Source of the DNA: Lactobacillales bacterium
GTDB taxonomy: Bacteria > Bacillota > Bacilli > Lactobacillales > Streptococcaceae
Assembly: GCA_031288715.1 (NCBI GenBank)
Contig: JAITQW010000045.1
Location: 1 to 34,706, forward strand
DNA length: 34,706 bases
Reading direction: 5' to 3'
Position numbers and translations under genes: made by a program. Shown here piece after piece: positions 9,143 to 26,472 of the stretch (position 1 is its first letter; every line of letters starts with the position of its first letter). The notes under the pieces are model-generated. The model was given only the letters and a program-made list of their open reading frames with translations. It was not told the DNA's origin and did not search any database.

Positions 9143-9227
9143 AAATTTTTCCTTGTCTATACTCGAATAATTAACGCTCGCTGGATAACTTTTAAATTTT
9201 AAAATCTTAATTGCAAAATTTTTTGGC

Positions 9228-9400
9228 ACCAAGAGATATATCCTGCCTAGTCTCTGGCAAGTGATGTCTGTTTTGCGATTAAAAGTTGCTCACATAAAAA
9301 TCGTTTGCCAATCTCACTAAGGCAGTTCGCACCGAGAGGTACATCCTGCCTAAGTTCTGCTGCACTTCGTACCGTAGTCACTTAAGGCAGTTCGCAATTT
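9228..9400 (+). repeat. Two tandem family B units with a family A core inside the first
   Basis: Unit one (9228-9330) starts ACCAAGAGATATAT and ends AAGGCAGTTCGC. Unit two (9331-9400) starts ACCGAGAGGTACAT and ends AAGGCAGTTCGCAATTTT. Each holds a hairpin with arms CCTGCC(T)A.../...AAGGCAG. Inside unit one lies a family A core with TGTTTTGCGATTAAAAG. A related unit is at 22311-22380. Nothing coding is seen in it. Confidence 0.75.
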
Positions 9401-9670
9401 TGAGCAAAAAGCCTGCATTATAAATAGCTTATTTATAGCTATCATAAATTATTCAGCAGTAATTAATTAAGAATAAGAAATTTTTATGTATAAGTTTTTT
9501 ATTGAAAATTTACAGATATGATTTAATAAAGTGAGTATAGCACAGCTTAATTTTTTAGAAAATTATCATGTATAGGTCGCAATTATCTTGTAAATGTACT
9601 GTAGATAATCATAGAAATGGGTACTTTGAGAATATTTATTCTGCTTGCTATGGTATTTGAAAATTGGTAA
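9401..9670. other. Non-coding AT-rich spacer with repeat E
   Basis: This stretch between the repeat block and the rplS terminator has no gene. It contains a perfect TATAAATA-GCT-TATTTATA palindrome at about 9419-9437 and one copy of repeat E. The remainder is AT-rich without visible structure. Confidence 0.4.
9428..9459 (-). repeat. Repeat family E, copy 1
   Basis: On the minus strand this reads CTGCTGAATAATT, four variable bases, then ATAGCTATAAATAA. It matches 16481-16512 in about 28 of 32 positions. It is too short to judge what it is. Confidence 0.55.
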
Positions 9671-12769: not shown

Positions 12770-12902
12770 TTTATAAATTGTAACTCAACCGCTTACCCAT
12801 CAAAACTTAGTTAATCAGCATGTTAAGCGTTGTTCAAGGAAGGGTGGAGATTTTTTGAGGTGTTTTTTCCTCAAAAAATACTAACTGATATTTACAGTAA
12901 AG
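12770..12902 (-). repeat. Repeat family D, copy 1
   Basis: The reverse complement of this block is nearly the same as 26340-26472 over about 130 bases. It includes GAACAACGCTT, a GCTGATTAACT segment and GAGTTACAATTTAT at one end. It starts right after the CPBP pseudogene stop. No reading frame is conserved. Confidence 0.8.
12851..12878. terminator. Bidirectional terminator hairpin inside repeat D
   Basis: A perfect 10-bp stem, TTTTTTGAGG/CCTCAAAAAA, has T-rich ends on both strands, so it can end transcription from either side. It is placed to terminate the sodA/CPBP transcript. Confidence 0.65.
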
Positions 12903-16466: not shown

Positions 16467-16480
16467 GAGATATTTAATGT

Positions 16481-16512
16481 CTGCTGAATAATTCGTAATA
16501 GCTATAAATAAA
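16481..16512 (+). repeat. Repeat family E, copy 2
   Basis: CTGCTGAATAATT, four variable bases, then ATAGCTATAAATAA, matching the minus strand at 9428-9459. Here it overlaps an AATAATT/AATTATT stem followed by a few Ts just after accA, so it may serve as a weak terminator. Confidence 0.55.
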
Positions 16513-16526
16513 TTATTTTTGACATT

Positions 16527-16656
16527 AGACCTCTTGCGAAACCAAGTACCATCACCTTGAACATGGTAGACTTCATGCCTACCATGCAGCAAAATTTTTT
16601 GGACTTGCATGTTTTCTTTTATTTTTTATACATTAATTATGTTTCGCAAGAGATCT
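16527..16656. mobile_element. 130-bp MITE with 16-bp terminal inverted repeats
   Basis: The left end AGACCTCTTGCGAAAC (16527-16542) and the right end GTTTCGCAAGAGATCT (16641-16656) are inverted repeats with one mismatch in 16. ATT flanks both sides (16524-16526, 16657-16659), a possible 3-base target duplication. The inside carries a perfect CATGGTAG/CTACCATG stem and no conserved protein. Ends of this kind are found on insertion sequences of the IS5 type, but I cannot assign a parent. It sits in the spacer between accA and ftsW. Confidence 0.75.
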
Positions 16657-16699
16657 ATTAATGTAGACTTTTTGATGCCAAAAGGTTTTGTGCTTAATT

Positions 16700-16781
16700 T
16701 TGAAATTTCAATTCTTGCTGAAAGAGGACGAATGAGACGACAGGCTCATGAGCGGCCCCTCTCAGCAAGAATTGATTTCAA
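16700..16781. repeat. Long imperfect palindrome, possible structured element
   Basis: Arms of about 26 bases, 16700-16727 and 16756-16781, pair through TCAATTCTTGCTGA / TCAGCAAGAATTGA with an AGAGG/CCTCT extension. The 28-base middle holds a shorter GAG...CTC stem and is richer in GC than its surroundings. There is no T-run after either arm, so it is not an ordinary terminator. It lies downstream of the MITE. Confidence 0.65.
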
Positions 16782-16838
16782 AAAGAGAAATTTAAAAGTT
16801 ATTCAGCAGGCAATATTTAAAATTTTGAGGTTATTTCT

Positions 16839-21824: not shown

Positions 21825-22252
21825 TTATTACGGAAAACTTGTTTGTGATTGAAGATGTTCTTAAAGAATTGGCAAAAGCAATAGGTAATTCTTGGCAAGC
21901 AAAAAAACTTTCTCTAGCGAGAAGAGAAGTTTCAGAAGATCCTAAGATTTTAAAACTTGAAAAGAATTTGCAATCTGCATACGATGAATTTGTTTGTATT
22001 CAGAAATATGGTTCGTATGCTCCTGGTTATAATGATAAGAAAAAAGCTTTTTATTATGCGAAGAAGGTATATGATTTGCATGATAGTATTGCTAATCTTA
22101 GACAGTCAGAGATGGCTGTGCAAACAATTTTAGATGAAGTTGCAGTAAAAATTGCTCAAGTAGTATCAGAAAATATTCCTGTTGACACGGGCAATCCATT
22201 TTTTAATTATAAACAAAAGAAAAATTGCGCAAAAGATTGTTTGTTTTCTTAG
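21821..22252 (+). CDS. ylbF: YlbF/YmcA family protein (RicF-like)
   Basis: YlbF in Bacillus is part of the Ric complex (YlbF, YmcA, YaaT), which works with RNase Y in mRNA maturation. The 143 residues are mostly helical, with the family core ELAKAIGNSWQAKKLSLARRE (about 13-33) and a later DEVAVKIAQVVSENIPVDTGNPFF. The C-terminus has two cysteines, NCAKDC, four residues apart; the Bacillus protein also has C-terminal cysteines, but I do not claim a cluster here. The start overlaps the pyc stop. The stop TAG shares its last two bases (22251-22252) with the first bases of a family A repeat, so the true C-terminus may have been trimmed by insertion. Confidence 0.85.
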   Translation: MIITENLFVIEDVLKELAKAIGNSWQAKKLSLARREVSEDPKILKLEKNLQSAYDEFVCIQKYGSYAPGYNDKKKAFYYAKKVYDLHDSIANLRQSEMAVQTILDEVAVKIAQVVSENIPVDTGNPFFNYKQKKNCAKDCLFS

Positions 22253-22559
22253 AGCCTGTTTTACGATTAAAAATCGTTCACAAAACGATCTCTCTATGGA
22301 TGTTTTGGAAACCGAGAGGTACATTCTACCTAACCTCTGTCACATTTCATGTGTCAATCGTTAAGGTAGTTCGCAATTTTTATGCAATTTTAGACTGAAA
22401 GCACGACTTTCAGGTGTCGGATAAATGAAAACGACCGTAGAAAGTTTTCTGTCAAAAACGCAGATTAGCGAAGCGTTGGTTCCAAATCGAGGATTTTTAA
22501 CGACAAAGGGCGTAAAATTGCCGAAAATTTCGCTATTATGTAGATCATTAACAGGTTCT
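22251..22559 (+). repeat. Long copy of repeat family A with an internal family B module
   Basis: The left end AGAGCCTGTT (22251-22260) and right end AACAGGTTCT (22550-22559) are inverted repeats with one mismatch in ten. Next to the left end is the perfect palindrome ACGATT-AAA-AATCGT. The B module lies at 22311-22380, followed by a CTGAAAG/CTTTCAG stem and about 140 bases with no gene. At 309 bp it is the longest form in the window. The short copies at 3871, 16839 and 34101 look like deletion forms of it. No transposase is encoded. Confidence 0.8.
22311..22380 (+). repeat. Family B module
   Basis: It starts ACCGAGAGGTACAT and ends AAGGTAGTTCGCAATTTT. The outer arms CTACCTAAC/GTTAAGGTAG enclose a perfect CACAT-TTC-ATGTG hairpin. 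Compared with 9331-9400, the paired bases change on both arms together. Confidence 0.75.
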
Positions 22560-22646
22560 TAATGGAAATTGATGAAGCATTTCCTAGATTTAAAATTAAA
22601 TGTAATCAAAAATCGATTTACACGTAAAGAGGGGTAAAGGGGTAAA

Positions 22647-26115: not shown

Positions 26116-26346
26116 ATGTTTTCAATTTTAGTTAATAAAAAGGTATTTCGGATATTATTTGTAATGACAATAATGGTTTTAGGTGTTGAGGGTGGGACCT
26201 GTTCTGCAGAATCAGGTGCTTTAGAAGACCCTATCATAGATAGTGCTTTGACTTTAGATTAAGCATTACAAGGTTTTTCATCGGAATATCCGGAAGAAAT
26301 TAAGAACAAACAGTGTCTTGTCGATTTAAAAAATTCCGCATTGTAA
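26116..26346 (+). pseudogene. 5' fragment of an M15-like D,D-carboxypeptidase, with a stop
   Basis: From ATG 26116 it reads MFSILVNKKVFRILFVMTIM, a signal-peptide-like start, then a TAA at 26260-26262, and continues in the same frame with ALQGFSSEYPEEIKNKQCLV before TAA 26344-26346. The segment PEEIKNKQCLVDL is like the first part of M15-type peptidases, in which a strand PEEI-KKQVLVDVRY leads to the zinc domain. The zinc site is missing because the frame ends where repeat D begins. The family call is tentative; that it is broken twice (nonsense, truncation) is direct. Confidence 0.5.
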
Positions 26347-26472
26347 AGGTCAGATAGTATTTTTTGAGGAAAAAGCGCCTCAAAAAATCTCCACCTTTCC
26401 CTGAACAACGCTTCACGTGCTGATTAACTTAGTTTTGATAGGTGGACGGTTTTGAGTTACAATTTATATAAA
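26340..26472 (+). repeat. Repeat family D, copy 2
   Basis: This block of about 130 bases matches the reverse complement of 12770-12902. It contains GAACAACGCTT, GTGCTGATTAACTTAG and GTTTTGAGTTACAATTTAT. It lies at the 3' edge of the M15-like fragment and ends 25 bases before sepM, so it takes up most of the sepM upstream region. Confidence 0.8.
26360..26387. terminator. Bidirectional terminator hairpin inside repeat D
   Basis: TTTTTTGAGG/CCTCAAAAAA, perfect over 10 bp, with loop AAAAAGCG. The loop differs from copy 1 while both arms are unchanged. It should insulate sepM from the serine hydrolase transcript. Confidence 0.65.

Follow-up and report, generated by a model that had tools for sequence, protein, structure and literature searches.

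A 34,706-nt stretch of a Lactobacillales genome of the family Streptococcaceae (the window) contains three copies of an imperfect palindrome of approximately 64 nt, the arms of which pair beyond chance across the repeat family. This hairpin forms a separate cassette: MITEs of three types, each with its own ends, carry it, as does an IS5-like transposase gene at a single codon. A start-codon form exists in a second genus. Both points had escaped the first-pass annotation. The chances are about even, in our estimate, that it is a non-autonomous palindromic DNA cassette, kept at the DNA level as a substrate for insertion.

The hairpin unit and its copies

The two short copies in the window (Table 1) carry the differing outer arms that had been claimed for them, between the near-fixed flanks ACCGAGAGGTACAT and AGTTCGCAATTTT. 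The neighbouring bases had been described as a further paired change, AAGT/ACTT against AAC/GTT; the paired change is correct, but AAGT/ACTT arises in the copy at 9331 from one extra T on its 3′ side (66 nt versus 65 nt), and the common form of these inner pairs is AGT/ACT beside an unpaired A.A. The third copy, of the long form, surfaced in a repeat search and lies head to tail with its short neighbour, the join reading GTTCGC|ACC. Elsewhere in the window, positions 12787–12896 and 26342–26451 form a 110-nt inverted pair, 87% complementary, that looks like another genomic repeat family.

Table 1 Hairpin units and carrier elements in the window
Feature	Position	Strand	Details
Type (ii) MITE with two hairpin units	9169..9467	.	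Ends AATTAACGCTCGCTGGATAA / AATTATTCAGCAGTAATTAA; limits approximate
Hairpin unit, long form	9228..9331	+	Insert of ~37 nt in inner loop; R1 E 6.9e-8
Hairpin unit, short form	9331..9396	+	66 nt including next A; R1 E 3.0e-16
Outer arms of 9331 copy	9346-9351 / 9385-9390		CTGCCT / AGGCAG
Second type (ii) MITE, without hairpin	16474..16812	.	Limits approximate
Type (iii)-like repeat nested in second type (ii) MITE	~16528-16661	.	GACCTCTTGCGAAAC..GTTTCGCAAGAGATC; approximate
Type (i) MITE with hairpin	22249..22561	.	TTA-GAGCCTGTT..AACAGGTTC-TTA; 3-bp TTA duplication
Mini-palindrome, left end of type (i) MITE	22261..22284	.	ACGATTAAAAATCGT; limits approximate
Hairpin unit, short form	22311..22375	+	65 nt; R1 E 1.5e-18
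Outer arms of 22311 copy	22326-22331 / 22364-22369		CTACCT / AGGTAG

A covariance model (R1) trained on 19 short host-genome copies alone identified at least 52 hairpin copies in that genome, where 150 of 414 candidates had been scored. In four sister genomes of the same genus it found 82, 9, 7 and 3 copies. The sister MAGs, with names such as Cc175_bin59, are presumably of termite-gut origin. Excerpts of PMC9137090 bearing on the termite-gut question do not mention Streptococcaceae. Three alignments were analysed: A1, made up of 19 copies aligned by sequence alone with MAFFT and unfitted to the model; A2, of 40 own-genome copies, 39 of them distinct; and A3, of copies from the sister genomes. 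The latter two were aligned to the model and therefore lean towards it.

Unit boundaries and carrier elements

In almost every context the unit begins with ACC and ends with TTCGC, an A being the next base, and the same boundaries recur at the joins of its exact tandem arrays. A rough script with overlapping labels, applied to 120 stored copies, linked 55 to type (i) MITE ends, whether close by or more distant, 19 to type (iii) and 9 to type (ii), placed 10 beside an adjoining tandem unit and 7 in the transposase gene, and assigned no label to 29. Type (i) ends read GARYCTGTTAA, for which the host genome gives 47 end matches as opposed to 1 for the reversed control. TTA, TAA or CTA duplications flank 8 of 11 own end pairs and 33 of 61 others. 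The empty MITE L194 (GTCAC|AATTACG) and the filled MITE L152 have the unit absent and present at the same point.

Long-form hairpins carry in their inner loop a relative of the mini-palindrome ACGATTAAAAATCGT, judged homologous by eye, and approximately 34-nt palindromic mini-modules of this kind stand in tandem in MITE ends at L011:1328-1420 and L026:1600-1704. The mini-module resembles the insert of the long hairpins and would constitute a second nested unit. Two further observations concern genes. In the host genome, a 171-bp type (i) MITE that includes the hairpin (L025:1464-1634) sits in frame within an Acyl_transf_3-domain ORF. At L029:1506-1569 (minus strand) the hairpin is part of an open frame where an ORF with a SpaA-type domain, which may encode a surface protein, has its upstream end.

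In sister genomes, a PF01609 transposase gene ends in GATCGTTAACAGGTTCTTA, the same as the type (i) end (only the right end was mapped), and that IS5-like element therefore probably moves type (i). The type (i) MITE carrying the 22311 copy is thus probably moved separately by such an element, to judge from the shared end. Within the transposase gene itself lie 7 of the 80 sister-species hairpin copies, all at one codon and with the same unit boundaries. They follow the codons for GYDGGK, L252 (66 nt) being in frame and L253 out of frame; L250 and L247 are empty, the latter from the same genome as the filled L252. All filled copies share the one codon and so may stem from a single event. An origin of the MITEs as simple deletion derivatives of the transposase gene was rejected because their right flanks differ from that gene, the exception being the chimera L117, in which the left side of the transposase is joined to the right side of a MITE at the hairpin.

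In the mechanism proposed for a mobile DNA cassette, a putative enzyme acting in trans would recognize the unit as a folded single strand, with the A.A mismatch and a TCT/AATC internal loop as its marks. This enzyme would insert the unit, with no clear target duplication, beside sequences like the unit's own end (..GC|A, a target rule drawn by eye), and insertion next to such sequences would explain the arrays. Pairing arms would be needed in the source copies that give rise to new ones, so that pairs would change together; resident copies would decay neutrally after insertion, and the cassette would also be carried by MITEs. No enzyme for the unit was found: the Y1 transposase (PF01797), which three of the five genus members possess, is missing from the host genome (88.6% complete) and from the most complete sister genome (G003, with nine hairpin copies), and as the mover it is unsupported given its absence from two of the five.

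A less probable account, though one to be taken seriously, holds that the hairpin is the internal B-type module of a BOX-like modular MITE, multiplied by tandem duplication and by homologous recombination between MITEs, with no insertion of its own. Recombination between MITEs could indeed spread the unit without insertion, and the tandem arrays, the modular and nested MITEs and the chimera L117 all fit this account, as does the A-B(n)-C architecture of BOX in Streptococcus pneumoniae. Excerpts of PMC3049150 describe BOX as a narrowly distributed composite that contains B modules in tandem, has features of MITEs and nests with other repeats. However, the unit stands by itself in the transposase gene, without other MITE sequence, where empty genes also exist, and the empty and filled MITEs differ by the unit at a shared position.

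Covariation of the arms

Double changes are found in 12 of the 14 stem pairs. In A2, 90.0% of cells are paired, compared with 82.3% after shuffling and 24.5–35.7% in controls with slid partners, and there are 72 double-change cells compared with 29.3 in shuffles, a number reached by none of 500. In A1, which was not fitted to the model, 27 double-change cells compare with 9.4 in shuffles, again reached by none of 500. In all three alignments, none of the 500 shuffles reaches either the observed number of double-change cells or the observed covariation score. Two other measures were reached by shuffles: further pair types by 500, 67 and 65 of the 500 in A1, A2 and A3, respectively, and the number of double-change pairs by 38 in A1 and 85 in A3. 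When 97 distinct copies were placed on a FastTree tree, parsimony gave 25 double changes that keep a Watson–Crick pair. Independent variation of the arms, which would have spoken against the paired change proposed from two copies, did not appear with more copies; pairing stands above the shuffles.

The unpaired A.A is present in all 19 rows of A1 and also in the second genus. A rough pattern script, some of whose exceptions may reflect parsing mistakes, counts it in 30 of 39 and in 53 of 73 distinct copies. Together with the TCT/AATC internal loop, the A.A persists while the pairs on both sides co-vary. This persistence bears on a quite improbable alternative, in which the complementarity of the arms comes from template-switch (quasipalindrome) correction rather than from selection. 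Palindromes are prone to such correction, and the double changes are grouped, for example AGT/ACT versus AAC/GTT, as it would have them; yet the A.A and the loop have been kept between co-varying pairs, and many A.C and G.T mismatches are left uncorrected.

DNA or RNA

In a stem kept as RNA, G.U should be tolerated and A.C avoided. The leftover mismatches comprise 30 A.C and 29 G.T cells in A2 and 35 A.C and 39 G.T cells in A3, and on the tree of 97 copies 49 A.C and 42 G.T branches. G.T being no commoner than A.C, individual copies appear to decay regardless of strand and are not maintained as RNA. Equal mismatches combined with paired changes suggest that source copies have to be palindromic, as a mobile DNA substrate would, and we infer selection on the palindrome of the source.

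It is highly doubtful that every copy is a functional RNA, a transcribed hairpin controlling RNA decay, termination or translation. Both short window copies have predicted RNA folds better than those of shuffled sequences (z of −1.90 and −2.85), and in the second genus (g9) the hairpin contains a ribosome-binding site directly before an ATG, as an RNA role would lead one to expect. Against this stand the lack of any excess of G.T over A.C, the absence of a start codon at the end of the unit in all 120 host-genus copies, a copy number ranging from 3 to 82 among sister species and the lack of an Rfam match. In g9, a T.G pair is fixed in 29 of 29 units and the other mismatches are 6 G.T and 6 A.C, too few to decide on strand asymmetry.

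The first-pass annotation had left the fold as either RNA or a DNA cruciform used by a transposase. Its paired change stands, and the hairpin does belong to mobile repeats; the DNA reading is favoured, and the RNA reading is disfavoured in the host genus but may hold in g9. A DNA substrate for a mobile-element enzyme is the better fit, although selection is not separated from template-switch correction.

A start-codon form in a second genus

Among 196 genomes of the family outside the host genus, the host-trained model R1 matched two genomes of g9 and none of the remainder. A DNA query within g9 matched 7 of 12 species, with 40 places in one genome (G062). A second model trained on both genera (R2) and run on 335 Streptococcaceae genomes matched all five host-genus genomes and 5 of 12 of g9, and gave no match in 8 of the 10 genera. 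The core common to both genera consists of GTACAT, a stem, CCTAAGTTCT, the hairpin, CAATCACTAA and a stem.

The g9 unit is 98 nt long, stands in tandem and ends AAAGGAGTAGCC|ATG, its 3′ arm being the ribosome-binding site. Of 59 matches, 7 were dropped as the same genome place reached through a second locus, leaving 52 units, 29 of which end an array inside a contig. Immediately after 26 of these 29 follows the ATG of an ORF of at least 60 amino acids, 25 at the same offset and one 1 nt later; one of the 26, L375, was found by a pattern containing ATG. Two of the other three array ends lead into the start of a further unit that reaches, or nearly reaches, the end of the contig; the remaining one (L274) is divergent. 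The weak matches L274, L293 and L296 are other forms, away from start codons.

Among the products of the genes behind the units are RecN, MutM, AlsS, TsaD, dihydroorotase, lactate oxidase, serine dehydratase alpha, a NadD-like protein and a LysR regulator, with 1 of 10 scanned giving no match. Across L269-L348, units stop right at the start codons of numerous unrelated genes, and there are tandem 98-nt arrays, for example before pyrC. A second copy of the ribosome-binding 12-mer seems to lie to the left of most of the g9 units inspected. The RecN leaders of the 12 g9 species include 3 with the unit and 9 without; the latter end AAAGGAGTTGCG|ATG (five) or GGAGGGAAATTG|ATG (four). In several g9 species (L349, L354, L355, L356 and L365), AAAGGAGTAGCCATG occurs without the hairpin at a small gene that, from its sequence, we take to resemble that of ribosomal protein L33. 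This AAAGGAGTAGCCATG at the L33-like gene is a possible origin of the 3′ end of the unit.

These observations are consistent with a wider reading, put forward tentatively and at somewhat less than even chances: a portable hairpin family in Streptococcaceae that inserts at precise sites, in g9 between ribosome-binding site and ATG, and there moves a translation switch with its own buried ribosome-binding site between genes (recN, pyrC, mutM, sdaAA, alsS, tsaD and others), often in tandem; the host-genus relative would have no start-codon target and would reside in MITEs and the transposase gene.

Relation to known systems

Rfam searches of the whole window, of 9150–9450 and of two g9 loci gave nothing relevant, no cut-off being reached. 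Both hairpin forms were without match in plasmids and phages (blastn), and a pattern search of IMG/VR found none; a query with L19 in viral contigs gave a mere hint of the hairpin family. Among the titles and abstract openings searched, which leave most subscription journals uncovered, none concerned this repeat or one fixed before start codons.

The integron attC core is GTTRRRY / RYYYAAC; it is not kept in A1, where AAC/GTT alternates with AGT/ACT and GAT/ATC. Shared ends with a transposase-coding element and TNA duplications are traits of the IS5-family (IS427-like) MITE group, and the type (i) carriers have both, an end common to the PF01609 element and a 3-bp duplication; this likeness is a trait of the carrier, not of the hairpin unit.

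BOX is the nearest architectural analogy. It occurs in the same bacterial family. Here, tandem units were observed between two ends, but the ends differ among the MITE types, and the unit is also found outside its MITEs and in three types of them. A sequence relation to BOX seems to be lacking, to judge indirectly from R2, which matches only 2 of 10 genera, with S. pneumoniae assumed to be among the 335 genomes.

The nearest functional analogy would be REP, because a fixed stem mismatch is required there: according to excerpts of PMC8266576, repairing the stem mismatch of Escherichia coli REP abolishes activity, and the mismatch is missing in some REP groups. REP with TnpA-REP (RAYT), and IS200/IS605 ends, likewise combine a small imperfect palindrome, a fixed stem mismatch and high copy number. 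In contrast, the GTAG (or CGTC) 5′ tag is absent here, GTACAT standing in A1 and the host-genus rows of A4, and the Y1 transposase is lacking in two of the five genomes.

Rickettsia palindromic elements (RPE) lie in frame within genes (excerpts of PMC10969869), as do the copies in transposase L252 and acyltransferase L025. However, few copies here are within genes: 7 of 80 from the sister species, confined to one transposase, plus one MITE in an acyltransferase. Most copies lie in MITEs or between genes. In place of the many unrelated genes that receive RPE in frame, two gene types and an open frame upstream of a third were found.

Implications

To our knowledge, how short bacterial palindromic repeats move, and whether their fold acts as DNA or as RNA, are mostly open questions. 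In the family described here, the symmetry of mismatches separates DNA from RNA, and empty sites define the unit. The relatives in the second genus make the idea of insertion at start codons testable; if the start-codon placement reflects insertion, the element would be mobile and would rewire the initiation of translation while leaving genes unbroken.
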